Under the pieces are notes generated by a model, which was given only the letters and a program-made list of their open reading frames with translations, did no database searches and was not told the DNA's origin. The translations under genes were made by a program, and so were the position numbers. Shown here in pieces: positions 52,006 to 63,982 of a stretch of 64,000 nucleotides of DNA. Numbering within the stretch: position 1 is the stretch's first letter; each line of letters opens with the position of its first letter. This DNA is from Massilia litorea (GTDB taxonomy: Bacteria > Pseudomonadota > Gammaproteobacteria > Burkholderiales > Burkholderiaceae_D). The stretch is taken from NCBI RefSeq assembly GCF_015101885.1, contig NZ_CP062941.1, positions 3,534,001 through 3,598,000 on the forward strand, in the 5' to 3' direction.

Positions 52006-53124
52006 TTACCGGGTATCCTCATCGGTCCGTTCAGCGGACTGGCGCGACATCGATCCAGTCTGCTGGGCCGACGCCAGCCGGACCGGCGCGTGCACCGCGT
52101 TCTGGCGCAGGACCGAATGCGGCTGGGTGCCCGGGCGCGCAATCGATGGCCGTCTCGTTCCCGGCGCCAGGTCGCTGGGCCGGTTCAGGCCCGTGGCCAC
52201 CACCGTCACGCGCATTGCGTCGCCCAGCGTGTCGTCGAAGACCGCGCCGAACTTGATGATGGCGTCCTCGTTGGTCTGGGCGCAGATCGTGTTCATCACG
52301 AGCTTGGTTTCACGCAGCATCAAGGTTTCCTCGGAAGCGGCGATGTTGACCAGCACCCCGCGCGCGGCGCGCAGGTTGGCGCCGTCGAGCAGCGGACAGG
52401 CGATGGCCTCTTCGGCCGCCCTGGCGGCGCGGTCGTCGCCGGCGTGCTGGGCAGTGCCCATCATTGCCATGCCGGTCTGGCGCATCACCGTGCGGACGTC
52501 CTCGAAATCGACGTTGATCATCCCCGGCACGGCGATGATGTCCGCGATGCCGGTCACTGCCTTGCTGAGCACCTCGTCGGCGGCGGCGAAGGCCTGTTTT
52601 TGCGTGACGTCCTCACCCAGCACTTCCTCGAGCCGGCTGTTGAGGACGATGATGAGCGAGTCGACGCAGCGTGCCAGCGCCGCGATGCCTTCCTCGGCCA
52701 CGCGCATGCGCCGCGGGCCTTCGAATTCGAAGGGCTTCGACACGACGGCGACGGTCAGGATGCCCAGCTCGCGCGCCACTTCGGCGACCACGGGAGCGGC
52801 GCCGGTGCCGGTGCCGCCGCCCATGCCGGCGGTGATGAAGACCATGTCGGCGCCCTTGAGCGCCTCGGCGATATGGTTGCGTTCGCGGGTGGCGCTTTCG
52901 CGTCCGACCATCGGGTCGCTGCCGGCGCCCAGGCCGCTCTCGCCGAGCTGGATGCGTTGTTCGGTGCGGGTATTCGACAGGGCTTGCGCGTCCGTATTCG
53001 CGCAAATGAATTCGAAGGTGGACAGTCCGGAGGATGCCATATGGTTGACGGCGTTACCGCCGGCACCGCCGACACCGATGATTTTGATGACCGTCGCCGG
53101 GGTGGGAATTATAGATTCGGACAA
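52006..53124 (-). CDS. FtsZ paralogue lacking the conserved C-terminal peptide
   Basis: I place the start at TTG 53124 (SESIIPTPATVIKIIGVGGA) because GGAGT lies 5 bases upstream; no ATG fits the family N-terminus. 372 residues. The GTPase is intact: GGGTGTG (102-108), GLGAGSDPMVGRESA, NVDFEDVRTVM (T7 loop, 204-214). The tail after about 315 (to ERTDEDTR) lacks the D-I-P-x-F-L-R peptide that binds FtsA or ZipA. It is not in a dcw cluster, so the main FtsZ should be elsewhere. Confidence 0.88.
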   Translation of the reverse strand: MSESIIPTPATVIKIIGVGGAGGNAVNHMASSGLSTFEFICANTDAQALSNTRTEQRIQLGESGLGAGSDPMVGRESATRERNHIAEALKGADMVFITAGMGGGTGTGAAPVVAEVARELGILTVAVVSKPFEFEGPRRMRVAEEGIAALARCVDSLIIVLNSRLEEVLGEDVTQKQAFAAADEVLSKAVTGIADIIAVPGMINVDFEDVRTVMRQTGMAMMGTAQHAGDDRAARAAEEAIACPLLDGANLRAARGVLVNIAASEETLMLRETKLVMNTICAQTNEDAIIKFGAVFDDTLGDAMRVTVVATGLNRPSDLAPGTRRPSIARPGTQPHSVLRQNAVHAPVRLASAQQTGSMSRQSAERTDEDTR

Positions 53125-53359
53125 GGAAGACTCCGTTTGAAGAAATAGCGTTCGGCCGGCCGCGCACCTGCCGCGCACCAGCTGCGGCACGAGGTGACGC
53201 ATGCCGAGCCCGTTAGACTACTTGCTGAGGCGCGCACGATAAAGCCTGTAAACGATTCAATCGAAACCATTTGTAAGAGCCCGTGCAATCATCGCGAAAG
53301 GCTGGCAGGCCAGCGGGGCAACCGCATTGCTTGACAATTCGATCATCCCTGACCACAAT

Positions 53360-58127: not shown

Positions 58128-59165
58128 TCACGGGCGCCACGAATGCTGCGGCGTCTGGCCCGGCACCAGCACCGTACGCTTCCCATCCTCGCCGGGGGCG
58201 GACAAGATATCGCCCTCCATGCTCTCCAGTAGCCGGCACGCGTGTCCATAGCCAATGCGCAGGTGCCGCTGAACCAGCGAAATCGACGCACGCTGGCTAC
58301 GTATCACGAGCGATCGGGCGGCGCCATACAGCGGATCGCGCAACGCTTCCTTTCCTTGCCCCGGCGCCTCCGGATCGGCAGCTTGATCCGGCAGCGCATC
58401 GTCGGCGCCGGTGCCTTGCCGCGCAAGTTCGGCTGCGTCGAACTGTCCGAAGGCAAAGATGTCGACTTCGAATGCGCCGTCTTCCAGGGCACTTTCGGAT
58501 CCGATCGACATCGTGATCGCGGCGCGTGGATGGACCCGGGCACGGACCAGATGGATCGCTTCCTTGATTTCGCTGCCGCCTATCGTTGTCGAGGCAGCGC
58601 GGATGCCGACGCAGACGCCATGCGCGGCGCGCAGACCCGGGCCTCGGGAATCGGCCTGCCTGATCGCCTCCAGGGCCGCAAGCGAGGCACGCGTGCCGCC
58701 CGTAGCGTGTCCGCATCCGAAACGAACTGCAGCCCCGCGCGAAGTTCCCAGGATGTGGCTGACGTCGTCCCAGTCGCAACCGACCGGCTGGTCCTGTCCG
58801 TCGCGTCTCAGTATTGTCCGGAGCAGGCGGCTCACTAGCTGCCGGCGCCGTCCCCGCGTCACGGCCACCACGGCATCGAAGGCGGCCTCGAGTTCGCCCC
58901 GGTGCGTTTCGTCCGGCGCGACCGGCCCGTCCTCGATCTCGACGACGGCAAGGCGCAGCGCGCCGCCGGTGTGCCGCCTTGCGATGCGTACCGCCTGCGC
59001 GCTTGCCGCAGCGTACGCAAAGGGGCCAGCGGCGATCACCAGGATCGGGGTGCCGCTGCGTGCCGGCGCCTGCACGGGGATCATCTCCGGCGCGGCGGCA
59101 TGGCCATCGGCGCCGACCTCGTGGAGTTCGACGAAGCTGCCTGCAAACGGTCCGTTCCCCTTCAT
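58128..59165 (-). CDS. Degenerate FtsZ-like domain fused to an FtsK gamma winged helix
   Basis: 345 residues. Residues about 38-242 align with FtsZ: the nucleotide motif is lost (AAGPFAYAAAS in place of GGGTGTG), a T7-like loop CDWDDVSHIL (130-139) remains, and the C-terminal tubulin-like half is clear (AAHGVCVGIRA, SEIKEAIHLVRA, EVDIFAFGQF). An acidic linker leads to 277-335, DPLYGAARSLVIRSQRASIS, QRHLRIGYGHACRLLESME and GKRTVLVPG, the fold that reads KOPS in FtsK. FtsK's recognition-helix Asn-Arg is Gly-His here. The start overlaps the upstream stop (ATGA). Confidence 0.82.
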   Translation of the reverse strand: MKGNGPFAGSFVELHEVGADGHAAAPEMIPVQAPARSGTPILVIAAGPFAYAAASAQAVRIARRHTGGALRLAVVEIEDGPVAPDETHRGELEAAFDAVVAVTRGRRRQLVSRLLRTILRRDGQDQPVGCDWDDVSHILGTSRGAAVRFGCGHATGGTRASLAALEAIRQADSRGPGLRAAHGVCVGIRAASTTIGGSEIKEAIHLVRARVHPRAAITMSIGSESALEDGAFEVDIFAFGQFDAAELARQGTGADDALPDQAADPEAPGQGKEALRDPLYGAARSLVIRSQRASISLVQRHLRIGYGHACRLLESMEGDILSAPGEDGKRTVLVPGQTPQHSWRP

Positions 59166-59851
59166 ACGGATGACGGATGCAGGAGCGCTTCGAGTGAGCA
59201 GTGCGCGAGGAAACAGTCCGCCATTGCACGCGACACGCGGGCGTGCTCGTCCTCCACCCTGGCGACCGCTTGAGCCAGCAAATTGCGCGCCGCGTCGGTA
59301 CCGATGTCGAAGGTCTGGTGGACGTGGAGATTCGTTTCTCCGAGATCGTGAATCCGATCCGGCGGTTCCGGATCGGTCTTCAGGATGCTCCTTTCGAGCG
59401 TCCGGCCGTCGGCCGACACACGGCCCGGGCAGTAGTCCGAGCGGAATACCTGGTACCACTCGCTTTTCGGATGAAGGTGCGCACGCATTCGCTGCCGCAG
59501 CTGCTTGTCCTCGATGACGGTCAGCGTGTTGCGCGACATGTGCCACAACCGGCCCACGATCGATCCCTGCGCTTTGCCGAGGTCCGCAAACGCGTCGTCC
59601 ACCGCTTCGGCCTGCCCGGCGACCGGGCGCGGTCCTGCCGCGAACCCGGCAGCCTTCCCGAACAGCGGTTCGTCGGCGAACACGGTCCTTGTCCCCCGGA
59701 GACGCCAGGCCATGCGGTCCATGTCGACGTACAGCAGGTAGTACGATGGCCAGTGCCATCTTGTCTTGTCGGGACTCGCGAGCAGCGCGAGGATGAACTG
59801 GTGGAGGTCCCGTACTTCGCGGAGTATCTCGTCTGGCGCTGTGTGCATCAT
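59162..59851 (-). CDS. Unknown protein of the ankyrin/FtsZ-FtsK operon
   Basis: I start it at ATG 59851 (MMHTAPDEILREVRDLHQFI) with AGGA just upstream; a longer frame begins only with TTG inside the previous gene. 229 residues, soluble, with Trp/Tyr-rich patches (RWHWPSYYLLYVDMDRMAWR) and an acidic, helical C-terminus (ARVEDEHARVSRAMADCFL). No family recognised. The stop overlaps the start of the FtsZ/FtsK fusion gene by 4 bases. Confidence 0.72.
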   Translation of the reverse strand: MMHTAPDEILREVRDLHQFILALLASPDKTRWHWPSYYLLYVDMDRMAWRLRGTRTVFADEPLFGKAAGFAAGPRPVAGQAEAVDDAFADLGKAQGSIVGRLWHMSRNTLTVIEDKQLRQRMRAHLHPKSEWYQVFRSDYCPGRVSADGRTLERSILKTDPEPPDRIHDLGETNLHVHQTFDIGTDAARNLLAQAVARVEDEHARVSRAMADCFLAHCSLEALLHPSSV

Positions 59852-59880
59852 CGTCCTGGTCGGGAATGAGTCGATCGAAT

Positions 59881-60372
59881 TCAGTCCGGGGATTCGCCAC
59901 GCAGGCGCGGCCCCCAAAGAAAGCGGGGCAGCGACAGGCGCAATTCGTCGTCGGTCTGGTCAGGGACCCCGCGCAGGTCGAGCACCCATTCGCGTACCAC
60001 GCTGCCGGAGACGATCTCGAGATGGATTTCGTCGTCGGTGAACGTGTGGGGCGGGTAGCCGGTGCGCCGTATGGGTCCACGGGTACCCCGGAGCATCCCG
60101 CTGAACCAGGTTGCCGCCAGCGGCGTATCGGGCCGGCCGAACAGCTGCGCGAGCAGGTCCTCCACCGGCGCCTTGAGTTCGGTGAGATACAGTACGCGGC
60201 CGCTGTCCCGTTCCGCCACCTCCCAGGTGGCGCGGTAACCGTTGGAGCATCCTGGCCAGGGGCGAAAGCGGGGGCGGGGCGACAGCGACGCCAGCCAGTC
60301 GTTGAGCGGGAAGGACTGGAGCGAATAGACCGTGCCGTCGAGGTGCAGGTGCTCCGCGAAATCGTAGCTCAT
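59881..60372 (-). CDS. Unknown protein of the ankyrin/FtsZ-FtsK operon
   Basis: 163 residues, soluble, beta-rich, with a conserved-looking core (NGYRATWEVAERDSGRVLYL, EIHLEIVSGSVVREWVLDLR). Its ATG overlaps the ankyrin stop codon by 4 bases (ATGA), and its end is 29 bases before the next gene. No family recognised. Confidence 0.72.
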   Translation of the reverse strand: MSYDFAEHLHLDGTVYSLQSFPLNDWLASLSPRPRFRPWPGCSNGYRATWEVAERDSGRVLYLTELKAPVEDLLAQLFGRPDTPLAATWFSGMLRGTRGPIRRTGYPPHTFTDDEIHLEIVSGSVVREWVLDLRGVPDQTDDELRLSLPRFLWGPRLRGESPD

Positions 60373-61583
60373 CGGGCGCCCTCCGGCCCCCAGGCCAGCC
60401 CGGCCAGTGTCCGCAGCAGTTCCGCGTCGGCGGGGGTGATGCCTTCGTGCCCTGCGGCCGCCTCGGTCACGCGCCTTGCATCCAGCCTGTCCCCGGCGTC
60501 GCGCAGGTCCGCGCCGGCCGGGCGCACTCCCTGCCGGAGCAGGAAGACGAGCATGTCGGCGCGCTCTGCCACCAGGTCGGACTCGTCCGAGTAAAGATCG
60601 TGCGGCCGCGAAGCGAGCGCGGTACGGAACGCGAGGCTGCCTGCGGCCTGCAGGTCGGCGCCGGCGGCAAGCAGCATCCGGACGGTGGTGGCATCCAGCG
60701 AGGCGACACCGGCAAGCAGTGCCGCGCCACCGTCGGCATGCACGTTCGCGCCATGCCCCAGCAGCCAGGCAACTGCCTCTTGCGCCATGTTCCTGGCGGC
60801 GGCCGCGAGGGCGCGGGCGCCGTCGGCGCGGATGTCGGCCCCTTGGGCCAGCAGGAAGTCGAGCATGCCTGTGTTGTCGGCGGCAGCGGCGGCCGGCAGC
60901 GCCACCGTGAGCATGTCGGCGCACGCCAGGCCGCCTTCCAGCAACCGAAGCAGGATGTTCTGGTAGTCGTGGTTGGTGCGCCCGGGCGCGAGATGGCCCG
61001 ATTCAGGCAGGAAACGGCTGTGCACGCCCTGGGCGGGCGTCAGGATCGCTGCGTGGCCATCGGCCCGCGGGTCGGCGCCGTGCGCGAGCGCCAGTGCGAC
61101 GCCTTCGGGATCGGCGTGGCGGCACGCCATCTCCAGGTACCGGTTCCAGAACGCGGCGCGCCAGTCGTCTGCGCGTGTGCCGTCGTGGCCGAAGGTTTCG
61201 CGCAGGCCCGCGAGGCGGCCCGCGATGAAGGCGCCGAGCCAGGCATCGGATGCGGCGACCGGCAGGGCCGGGCCGTTGTCGCTAACCGCGGCGGCGACCG
61301 CCTCTGGCCAGGGCGCGTCGAGTTCGTCGATCTGCTCTTTCAGGAGGCCGACGGCGAGCCGGAAGTCGAAATCGAATGCGGAGCCGCATGCCAGCACGGC
61401 CGCCAGCTTCAGGCAGGGCGCCAATGCGCTGGTGCCGAGAAAAGACAGCATGGCATCCTCGTAGCGCGGAACGTTGTGGAACGGCGCCATCTGGCTGCGC
61501 TCGAGCAGTTCGTGCCAGTTGCCACGAATGTCGTCGAGCGTGCTGCAGTGTTCGAGGGGCAGGTACCAGCGGAGATCGGACAT
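60369..61583 (-). CDS. Ankyrin-repeat protein
   Basis: 404 residues. An N-terminal helical domain (about 1-160) is followed by ankyrin-type repeats (about 165-330): ALALAHGADPRADGHAAI, LDFLLAQGADIRADGARAL, VAWLLGHGANVHADGGAALL and VRMLLAAGADLQAAGSLAF. No signal peptide. It should be a protein-binding scaffold or sensor. It is the first gene of a four-gene coupled operon, and a 17-bp operator-like palindrome lies 79-95 bases upstream. Confidence 0.85.
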   Translation of the reverse strand: MSDLRWYLPLEHCSTLDDIRGNWHELLERSQMAPFHNVPRYEDAMLSFLGTSALAPCLKLAAVLACGSAFDFDFRLAVGLLKEQIDELDAPWPEAVAAAVSDNGPALPVAASDAWLGAFIAGRLAGLRETFGHDGTRADDWRAAFWNRYLEMACRHADPEGVALALAHGADPRADGHAAILTPAQGVHSRFLPESGHLAPGRTNHDYQNILLRLLEGGLACADMLTVALPAAAAADNTGMLDFLLAQGADIRADGARALAAAARNMAQEAVAWLLGHGANVHADGGAALLAGVASLDATTVRMLLAAGADLQAAGSLAFRTALASRPHDLYSDESDLVAERADMLVFLLRQGVRPAGADLRDAGDRLDARRVTEAAAGHEGITPADAELLRTLAGLAWGPEGAR

Positions 61584-61863: not shown

Positions 61864-62376
61864 TCAGGCGGATGCGGAGCAGCGTGACAGGAAAGCGCCG
61901 AACAGTTCGCGCAGCAAGGGGATGCGGTGGTTCAGGCGATGGTCGCCCTGCACCAGGTGCAGGGTACAGCCGCGCAGGCGTGCGTAGCGGATCGCGTGCT
62001 CGCAGGGGATGAGGTCGTCGTCCCAGCCGTGCACGATCTCCGCATGGGTGGCCAGCAGGGCCGGGGCCTGGGTCGGATAATCCGGCATGTACACGGCGGG
62101 GGCGAGCAGGAACACGCCGTGCGCGTCGAGCCAGGCCGACGCTTCCGCGGCCACCCAACCGCCCATGCTCGATCCCACCAGCAGCAGCGGCCGGTCGAGG
62201 ACGCTGCAGGCCTTTCTCAACTGTTCCAGCCGCAGTGCCGGATCGGCGGTGTGCGTGTAATCGAGGCTGGCGACGTCCCAGCCCTGCTGCCATGCCACCG
62301 CCGCCAGTGCCGCGATCTTGGCGCCGGCCGGCCCGCTTTCCTTCCCGTGCACGAAGTGGATCAATCCCTTGTTCAT
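61864..62376 (-). CDS. Alpha/beta hydrolase, YqiA/RBBP9-like
   Basis: 170 residues from ATG 62376 (MNKGLIHFVHGKESGPAGAK). Nucleophile motif LLVGSSMGGWVAAE (Ser), later Asp in IVHGWDDDLIPCEHA and His in LVQGDHRLNHRI complete a serine-hydrolase triad. Small esterase of unknown substrate. It follows a 66-residue gene on the same strand after 14 bases. Confidence 0.85.
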   Translation of the reverse strand: MNKGLIHFVHGKESGPAGAKIAALAAVAWQQGWDVASLDYTHTADPALRLEQLRKACSVLDRPLLLVGSSMGGWVAAEASAWLDAHGVFLLAPAVYMPDYPTQAPALLATHAEIVHGWDDDLIPCEHAIRYARLRGCTLHLVQGDHRLNHRIPLLRELFGAFLSRCSASA

Positions 62377-62390
62377 CGGCGTGCGCGCGC

Positions 62391-62591
62391 TCACAGGCAG
62401 GCGATCAGCGAGGCCAGGATGTTGCCGTGGCCGACCGTGTGCAGGCGCGCGTCGCGCGTGCTGTCGGTACGCGGGTCGTAGTAGCCGACGATATGCAGGC
62501 GCACATCCCTGGCGGTCTGCCTGCCGTCGGCGGCGGTGTCGATGTAGCCGGCGGTGTGGTGCCGTGCATCGGTCAGTGTCTGTCTTGTCAT
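62391..62591 (-). CDS. Small internally repeated protein (66 aa)
   Basis: Three copies of a DARxHTxGY-like unit are seen: TDARHHTAGYIDT, RDVRLHIVGYYDP and RDARLHTVGHGN, about 22-24 residues apart, suggesting a beta-hairpin repeat. It ends LASLIACL. No known function. First gene on the minus strand from the operator region shared with the WYL gene. Confidence 0.65.
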   Translation of the reverse strand: MTRQTLTDARHHTAGYIDTAADGRQTARDVRLHIVGYYDPRTDSTRDARLHTVGHGNILASLIACL

Positions 62592-62795: not shown

Positions 62796-62975
62796 ATGCC
62801 TGCACTGATCCAACACATCGACGCGATCGCGCGCACGCAAGGGCGGGGCGCCCGCGACGTCGAATCCCTGCGTTTCGCTGCCCCGGCGCTTGCCCATGCG
62901 ACGGTCGAGGCCGCGCATGTCGAGGCCGCGCATCTCGAGGCGGCTTTGCGGGCGCGCCGGGCGGAGCTGTCCTGA
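62796..62975 (+). CDS. Small protein preceding the WYL regulator (59 aa)
   Basis: MPALIQHIDAIARTQGRGAR starts a 59-residue frame, mostly helical, with an EAAHVEAAHLEAALRARRAE end. The stop overlaps the WYL start by one base (TGATG), so the two are coupled. No family recognised; it could be a leader or a partner of the regulator. Confidence 0.55.
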   Translation: MPALIQHIDAIARTQGRGARDVESLRFAAPALAHATVEAAHVEAAHLEAALRARRAELS

Positions 62976-63982
62976 TGGCGACCAACCAGCAATCGCTGCT
63001 GCGCCAGTGGCACATGCTGCGCATGGTGCCGCGGGCGCCGCTCAAAGTGTCGGCCAGGGACCTGTGCGAGCGCCTGTGCGCGGCCGGCTTCGAGGTCGCC
63101 AAGCGCACGGTCGAGCGCGACCTGAAGGAACTGTCCGAGGTGTTTCCGATCGTGGTCGACAGCCGTGACAAACCCTATGGCTGGAGCTGGCTGCGCGAAG
63201 CATCGAGCTTCGACCTGCCCGGGCTGAGCCTGCCCGAAGCGCTGACGCTGGCCCTGGTCGAGCAGCACCTGCAACACCACCTGCCGCCGAGCGCGGTCGA
63301 TGCGCTGCGCCCGCACTTCCAGTCGGCCGCCCGCACGCTGTCGGCGGTGGACGACGCCTCGCCCCCGCGGGCCTGGCTGAACAAGGTGCGCAGCGTGCCA
63401 CCCCAGCAGCCCTTGCTGCCGCCGCGCATGGACGACGAATGCCAGCGCCTCGTGTACCTCGCCCTGATGCAGGACCGCCAGCTCAGGCTCCACTATCGCA
63501 AGCGGGATGCGGACGTGGCGACGGTGTATCCCGCGGTGCACCCGCTGGCCGTGGTGCAGCGCGGCGGCCTGGTCTACCTGGTGTGCATGTTCGGTCACTA
63601 CGACGATGTCCGTACCCTGGCGCTGCACCGGGTGCAGCAGGCCGAGGTGTCGTACGAAGCGGGGCGCCGCAAGCCCGGTTTCGACATCGACGCCTACATC
63701 GCATCCGGGCAGTTCGGGGTGATCGCGGGTGCGCCGATCACGCTGCGCGCGGTGTTCAGCCGGGCTGCCGGCGAACACCTGTTCGAAACGCCGCTCAGCG
63801 CCGACCAGGTGCTGACCGCCGACGACGCCGGATGCCTGCACCTGGCGGCCACGGTACCGAATACCCGATCGCTGGTGTGGTGGCTGCTCGGCTTCGGGGA
63901 CGGGGTGGTGATCCAGGAGCCAACGAGCCTGCGCGAGGAACTGGCCGGCATTGCGCGGCGCATGACGGCGGCCTATGCCTGA
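62975..63982 (+). CDS. WYL-domain transcriptional regulator
   Basis: 335 residues. N-terminal winged HTH (LCERLCAAGFEVAKRTVERDLKEL, about 25-50) and a WYL domain (about 140-220: LRLHYRKRDADVATVYPAVH, VVQRGGLVYLVCMF, LALHRVQQAEV), plus a C-terminal WCX-like domain. WYL regulators bind ligands such as nucleotides or ssDNA and often control phage-defence or DNA-damage genes. The 17-bp palindromes in its promoter and upstream of the ankyrin operon point to that operon as a target (inference). Confidence 0.92.
   Translation: MATNQQSLLRQWHMLRMVPRAPLKVSARDLCERLCAAGFEVAKRTVERDLKELSEVFPIVVDSRDKPYGWSWLREASSFDLPGLSLPEALTLALVEQHLQHHLPPSAVDALRPHFQSAARTLSAVDDASPPRAWLNKVRSVPPQQPLLPPRMDDECQRLVYLALMQDRQLRLHYRKRDADVATVYPAVHPLAVVQRGGLVYLVCMFGHYDDVRTLALHRVQQAEVSYEAGRRKPGFDIDAYIASGQFGVIAGAPITLRAVFSRAAGEHLFETPLSADQVLTADDAGCLHLAATVPNTRSLVWWLLGFGDGVVIQEPTSLREELAGIARRMTAAYA

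Follow-up and report, generated by a model that had tools for sequence, protein, structure and literature searches.

Within a 64,000-nucleotide window of the Massilia litorea genome (contig NZ_CP062941.1, positions 3,534,001 to 3,598,000 of the forward strand), the gene at 58128..59165 on the minus strand encodes a 345-residue fusion of an FtsZ-like module with an FtsK gamma domain, as indicated by Pfam, profile searches, hhalign, Foldseek and alignment. Judged by sequence comparison and structure prediction, this protein, which we call FtsZ-gamma, is a degenerate FtsZ in which the T7 ("bottom") face persists along with the C-terminal subdomain, while the loops that bind GTP on the "top" face are gone. 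We propose, with a probability of roughly 0.4, that FtsZ-gamma is an adaptor whose T7 face would dock on FtsZ and whose gamma domain would dock on XerD or DNA. The first-pass annotation of this stretch knew of no described system with such a fusion, and we also found none in open-access full text (subscription papers and preprints being outside this scope).

The FtsZ-like module occupies residues 7-244 (58434..59147, minus strand). Pfam alone gives a faint signal, with FtsZ_C at E 0.0025 scoring 18.5 bits against a cut-off of 27, and no match to PF00091 up to E 1. However, the likeness to FtsZ is beyond chance because FtsZ-gamma matches the two FtsZs of its own genome (E 8e-7 and 6e-5), the family profile matches PDB FtsZ (E 3.9e-10), hhalign aligns the FtsZ-like part with FtsZ (E 2.5e-13), and Foldseek matches the predicted model to FtsZ (E 3.8e-13). 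Hhalign, Foldseek and the model agree on a tubulin/FtsZ fold with the C-terminal subdomain. An FtsZ-like C-terminal half had been proposed at first; the resemblance is real but extends in the model over about residues 7-244, beyond that half. Likewise, the GGGTGTG motif is absent as had been noted, but the loss is wider, and the whole region from the first strand to strand S4, with T1-T3, is gone. Pfam, the alignment and the model all indicate that none of the nucleotide-binding loops T1-T4 is present. In comparison with FtsZ (TIGR00065; PF00091 and PF12327), FtsZ-gamma thus shares the fold, both acidic T7 positions and the C-terminal subdomain, whereas it lacks the T1-T4 site and the C-terminal peptide, has a core about 70 residues shorter and has gained gamma. 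A variable linker at residues 245-274 (58344..58433, minus strand), mostly of low model confidence, replaces the FtsZ linker and C-terminal peptide; the alignment of 22 family members shows no such peptide for FtsA/ZipA, unlike the main FtsZ of the host, which ends in DIPAFLRKQAD.

Two elements of the bottom face are recognizable. The start of helix H10 (G-x-E-I-K-E-V, residues 197-203, 58557..58577, minus strand) has an invariant K201 (22/22), and H10 borders the T7 face of FtsZ. The T7-like loop, I-x-C-D-W-x-D-V (residues 128-135, 58761..58784, minus strand), has C130, D131 and W132 in all 22 aligned sequences; at position 134, 20 of them carry Asp and two Glu. The FtsZ consensus for this loop is N-x-D-x-x-D. 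For Staphylococcus aureus FtsZ, PMC8936486 describes how the T7 aspartates D210 and D213 position the catalytic water at the GTP of the underlying subunit.

The other part of the fusion is a complete FtsK gamma winged helix at residues 275-335 (58161..58343, minus strand), in agreement with the original reading: Pfam PF09397 (FtsK_gamma) matches residues 276-334 above its cut-off (E 4.7e-16), and the family profile matches PDB FtsK gamma at E 1.4e-17. Profile searches, named beforehand as a critical check, therefore returned both FtsZ and FtsK_gamma. Unlike FtsK itself, FtsZ-gamma shows no Pfam match to a RecA-type motor or a membrane domain in its 345 residues. Escherichia coli FtsK contacts XerD through Q1288, R1289, R1292, I1293, G1294 and N1296; the R1289-E184 pair has the greatest effect, and residues 1289-1297 alone, fused to XerC, stimulate recombination (PMC5052618). 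The window protein has Gln, Arg, Arg, Ile and Gly at the first five of these positions and differs by a Gly at 1296. Among the 22 rows, Q1288 and R1289 are invariant (22/22 each) and R1292 is found in 20/22, so that the XerD surface appears mostly kept, minus one contact. Since the same surface residues also touch DNA (PMC5052618), binding to DNA alone is conceivable as well.

The recognition helix had also been described as altered. This applies to Asn1296, which is lost family-wide yet retained in the host FtsK and in 14 other printed FtsK, RdgC-gamma and unnamed gamma rows. It does not apply to R1300, E1303 and E1306, which serve the reading of FtsK-orienting polar sequences (KOPS) in E. 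coli FtsK (PMC2680272) and are all present in the window protein. Over the 22 rows, R1300 occurs in 17/22, position 1303 is Asp in 19, Glu in two and Val in one, and E1306 occurs in 19/22. By eye, the wing of FtsZ-gamma is one residue shorter than that of the host FtsK. The host XerD keeps Glu at the E119 and E184 positions (numbering hand-counted on an alignment). The only dif-like site found (G000:C1:3970756-3970781, locus L303; two mismatches) is flanked at 3966908 and 3974816 by two further matches to tyrosine recombinases, perhaps indicating a Xer-using element at dif in G000.

A search of 5.8 billion proteins, in which the 8000 candidates sharing most words were scored, gave 83 matches: 22 full-length relatives including the window protein, and 61 others covering 12-28% of the query. 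The 21 other full-length clusters are 40-79% identical to the window protein, and their aligned rows carry both parts. The pseudo-FtsZ without a nucleotide site joined to FtsK gamma is consequently a family of 22 clusters and no single-genome chimera. In stretches picked by eye, conservation is strongest in T7 (residues 128-135, 0.51 bits), the start of H10 (197-203, 0.52) and gamma (299-317, 0.48), with other regions at 0.90-2.10. An even scan by 8-residue segments gave the lowest values in gamma (0.03 at 292-299, 0.30 at 302-309 and 0.45 at 312-319); within the FtsZ part it gave 0.46 for the last strand (233-240), 0.51 for T7 and 0.68 for the start of H10 (197-204).

Two relatives, G058 (L005:1453-3182) and G003 (L017:428-2277), have the FtsZ-like part without gamma and lie beside a Sel1-repeat protein (Sel1 E 1.6e-17 in the G058 neighbor), with a small upstream open reading frame (ORF) common to both loci. 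In a midpoint-rooted tree of 31 rows, the family as a whole is separate from FtsZ (support 100/100), and G058 and G003 fall inside it with the gamma-bearing P0022 (100/99), although G003 has a long branch of 1.08 and is placed less surely. Because both nest with P0022, gamma was lost in them. In these two the T7 loop has become CAWGD and CEWGG, with Ala or Glu in place of the first Asp and with the second Asp kept once and changed to Gly once; gamma loss and T7 decay thus coincide in this single lineage. Such losses, together with the rarity of the family, could suggest a decaying chimera without function. We give this explanation next to no credence in view of the 21 other diverged clusters with invariant positions in both parts.

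How could a bottom-face-only protein act on FtsZ? FtsZ filaments are stacked so that each subunit rests with its T7 face against the GTP face of its neighbor; growth is tentatively assigned to the T7-exposed end, and bottom-interface mutations are reported to be toxic whereas top-interface ones are not (PMC8936486). Given the T7-to-GTP-face contact, a protein with a T7 face only could join the nucleotide-exposed filament end or hold free GTP-FtsZ. In the proposed adaptor, the T7 loop and H10 would dock where host FtsZ exposes its GTP face, on free subunits or on the nucleotide-exposed filament end, and docked FtsZ-gamma itself could not be extended. Gamma would hold XerD, through an R1289-type contact, or chromosomal DNA, so that a single protein would link the Z ring to the chromosome terminus. 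The locus, which also encodes a WYL regulator, an ankyrin protein and two proteins of unknown family, would then use FtsZ-gamma as an accessory, probably only under certain conditions, and the output may be a brake on division or an FtsK-independent control of Xer recombination. The first-pass annotation suggested a protein that could be part of the division apparatus, cap it or sense it while docking on DNA, which comes close to this reading of predicted contacts.

Several observations weigh against the adaptor. The T7 Asn position is Gly in nine, Ser in six, Ala in six and Asn in only one of the 22 rows, and in S. aureus FtsZ replacement of this residue (N208) by Leu stops assembly (PMC8936486). 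On the gamma side, N1296 is found in 0/22 members, with Gly, Gln, Arg or Thr instead, and the host XerD lacks Q123, E183 and Y187 (by the same hand-counted numbering). Some of the conserved XerD-surface residues may be merely structural, as may those of T7 and H10. The family alignment is shallow, with 22 rows, and conservation inside the FtsZ part peaks in the last strand, which matches no FtsZ contact that we know of. The family is also rare. A full or partial member occurs in 3/392 genomes of a family sample (the host, G058 and G003), and the host stands alone among 399 genomes of an order sample at E 1e-24, both searches scoring at most five candidates per genome, so that members may be missed. 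A search of the genus with up to 10 candidates per genome returned the same three genomes, and the 61 genus genomes besides the host gave no relative of full length.

A different reading is a DNA- or XerD-reading regulator, in which gamma would be the working part and the FtsZ fold would no longer meet FtsZ, serving self-association or the binding of a ligand instead. In its favor, conservation is highest in gamma, the T7 Asn is lost, R1300, E1303 and E1306 are in place in the window protein, and stand-alone small proteins resembling gamma are found next to gene 3, ankyrin or SIR2 genes (see below). On the other hand, T7 and H10 stand out in conservation inside the FtsZ part, and the gamma-less relatives retain that part, so that more than gamma alone is worth preserving. 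We consider this regulator a doubtful alternative to the adaptor.

The adaptor reading assigns the host FtsZ as partner, yet a second full FtsZ lies 5 kb from the fusion gene (52006-53202, minus strand; TIGR00065, 373.7 bits). Its proximity and its lack of a C-terminal peptide raise the idea that FtsZ-gamma caps or anchors this paralogue instead of the main FtsZ. We regard this as very improbable: a second FtsZ match occurs in 20/62 genus genomes and the fusion family in three, G058 has a family member with one FtsZ match only, and H10 of the fusion (EIKE) resembles the main FtsZ and not the paralogue. In the host genome (5.35 Mb, two contigs), a search at E 0.001 gave four matches, namely FtsZ-gamma itself, a gamma frame taken as FtsK, and the two FtsZs. 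In G037 (L185:1462-3960, plus strand), the second FtsZ lies in a 1287-codon open frame that by eye runs into an apparent DNA polymerase II.

FtsZ-gamma is encoded by the last of four adjoining minus-strand genes, all open as initially placed and each with an ATG start. Gene 4 (60369..61583) encodes a 404-residue ankyrin-repeat protein (Pfam Ank_2, E 1.1e-6), gene 3 (59881..60372) a 163-residue protein with a beta-rich model (predicted local distance difference test score 84.7), and gene 2 (59162..59851) a 229-residue protein found in 12 clusters, its own included. The ORF listing gives only 60369-61583 with this start and begins the other three upstream (at 60924, 59917 and 60080); each of these three has an ATG further down, at 60372, 59851 and 59165, which gives lengths close to those of most relatives. 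ATGA overlaps of four nucleotides join genes 4 and 3 as well as gene 2 and the fusion gene, and genes 3 and 2 are spaced by 29 nucleotides, as first described. The assignment of one ankyrin protein and two proteins of unknown family also stands, since Pfam finds ankyrin repeats in the 404-residue protein and no domain at all in genes 2 and 3; gene 2 has no match in Pfam, NCBIfam, PADLOC or PHROG.

The prediction that the four genes co-occur elsewhere was not borne out within the genomes and clusters covered. Metagenomic linkage was read from identical lengths of the longest contig of each cluster, a fingerprint that undercounts because one contig per cluster is visible. Besides the window's own, the fusion and gene 3 share lengths of 24999, 31304, 6594 and 2233 (4/21 clusters), genes 2 and 3 share 31347 and 16831, and the fusion and gene 2 share none. 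The linkage of gene 3 to the fusion thus recurs, whereas the full set is seen, as far as these fingerprints of the 21 clusters reach, in the window genome only, leaving the operon as a fixed system without support.

Upstream of the operon lie a UPF0227 alpha/beta-hydrolase-like protein (61864..62376, minus strand; Pfam E 9.2e-7) and a 66-residue ORF (62391..62591, minus strand; also present at the loci of G013, G060, G048 and G045), both conserved flanks, and a divergent WYL/WCX transcription regulator (62975..63982, plus strand; Pfam WYL E 1.2e-11, PADLOC WYL E 3.9e-27). Among the 62 genus genomes, the host included, matches occur in 10 for gene 3, 11 for gene 2 and 13 for the ankyrin protein, counts that take in fragments and weak matches. 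Gene 3 adjoins the ankyrin gene in the window as well as in G037, G045 and G046. A short gamma-like ORF (Pfam E 4e-6, under the cut-off) stands beside gene 3 or SIR2 in G013 and G045; used as queries, these two ORFs found 11 places in 10/62 genus genomes, none of them in the host. Outside the window genome, pairs within 5 kb were counted against random placing, which ignores genomic islands: three pairs of gamma-like ORF and gene 3 (0.003 expected; one gene-3 match is a fragment), three of gene 3 and ankyrin (0.006), two of gamma-like ORF and ankyrin (0.006), and one of genes 3 and 2 (0.003).

The surroundings were read at 10 of the 11 places. At four, a SIR2 gene follows the gamma-like ORF on the same strand (L318:5428-6548, L315:6284-7404, L316:5263-6500 and L178:10896-12124), with 4-nucleotide overlaps in G046, G060 and G027 and a 26-nucleotide gap in G045; SIR2 likeness is E 1e-120 or better, with the G045 protein, which Pfam identifies as SIR2, as the reference. 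At L319, a fifth place, the ORF is followed by a SIR2 frame with transposases alongside, and in G013 the gamma-like ORF overlaps gene 3 with SIR2 5 kb further. All 10 small gamma-like proteins have LQR and GY (LQRxFRxGY in seven), Asn1296 is present in one, R1300 in none and E1306 in two. The UPF0227 gene recurs at 5/10 of these loci, and the WYL regulator has a close counterpart (E below 1e-150) at 6/10 and a remote one at two more. The window operon therefore sits in a variable locus where several relatives carry gamma-SIR2 sets. A cpYpsA SLOG-family protein (L315:930-1424, minus strand; Pfam E 1.8e-51) was also seen at one locus with SIR2 and a gamma-like ORF.

Near these genes are GmrSD (E 7e-29) and an IetA-like AAA protein (E 1e-32) in G060, an IetA-like AAA protein (E 2e-37) in G013, and dynamin-like and NERD-UvrD proteins in G046, which points to a defense-type hotspot. 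FtsZ-gamma might accordingly be a division-blocking defense effector: an invader would be sensed by the ankyrin protein, genes 2 and 3 or the WYL regulator, FtsZ-gamma would be released or made and sequester GTP-FtsZ, division would stop, and gamma would direct the protein to DNA or XerD. On this view, a SIR2 effector would occupy the corresponding position in neighboring genomes. The SIR2 effectors of related loci, following a small gamma-like ORF, and the patchy distribution are in favor. However, the PADLOC search of six window proteins gave the WYL regulator and a weak match of gene 4 (2.8e-5) confined to the ankyrin repeats, with none for genes 1-3 at E 0.01, and the SIR2 proteins tested had no PADLOC match. 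In addition, a bottom-face-only protein resembles the less toxic kind of FtsZ mutant (PMC8936486), for which reason we rank the docking adaptor above a strong poison and consider the effector unlikely. Similarly unlikely, in our view, is a bolder form of the adaptor: a dead, bottom-face-only FtsZ serving as a Z-ring docking plug, wired by gamma to XerD/dif or terminus DNA as an FtsK-independent link between division and the chromosome end, and interchangeable in the hotspot with the gamma-SIR2 pair, gamma being a shared address label for effectors.

Among known systems, the nucleoid-occlusion proteins SlmA and Noc and the MatP-ZapB-ZapA chain couple DNA position to FtsZ, as we propose for FtsZ-gamma; they have other folds, and none, to our knowledge, is FtsZ-derived. 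SlmA carries a TetR-type and Noc a ParB-type domain, for which FtsZ-gamma gives no Pfam match up to E 1, its model being FtsZ-like. MciZ and SulA inhibit FtsZ by binding one of its interfaces and limiting assembly, and we know of no FtsZ ancestry or gamma domain in either. XafT, the XerD-activating factor, is reminiscent of FtsK gamma and has no FtsZ part that we know of. Found in an integrative element of Vibrio cholerae, it is likewise a non-FtsK protein that acts on XerD (PMC9765430). A gamma tail on another protein also occurs in RdgC-FtsK gamma fusions (P0028, P0030, P0068, P0076 and others), which differ by their RdgC head and by keeping Asn1296 in all eight printed rows; no paper combining "FtsK gamma domain" and RdgC was found in open-access full text. 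Many viral contigs (loci L215-L294) carry gamma-like stretches. With the RdgC tails and viral contigs, gamma gives the impression of a mobile domain. The separate parts of FtsZ-gamma are known, but an FtsZ without a nucleotide site that is joined to gamma belongs to no kind known to us.

If the adaptor reading is true, FtsZ-gamma would be a ready-made bridge between ring and chromosome evolved from two core division parts. It would offer a simple handle on the coupling of division to the terminus, with FtsK gamma acting as an address label outside FtsK, and FtsZ pseudo-subunits would join the small set of natural FtsZ regulators. The gamma-SIR2 gene pair of the related genomes is in turn a candidate defense-type module.

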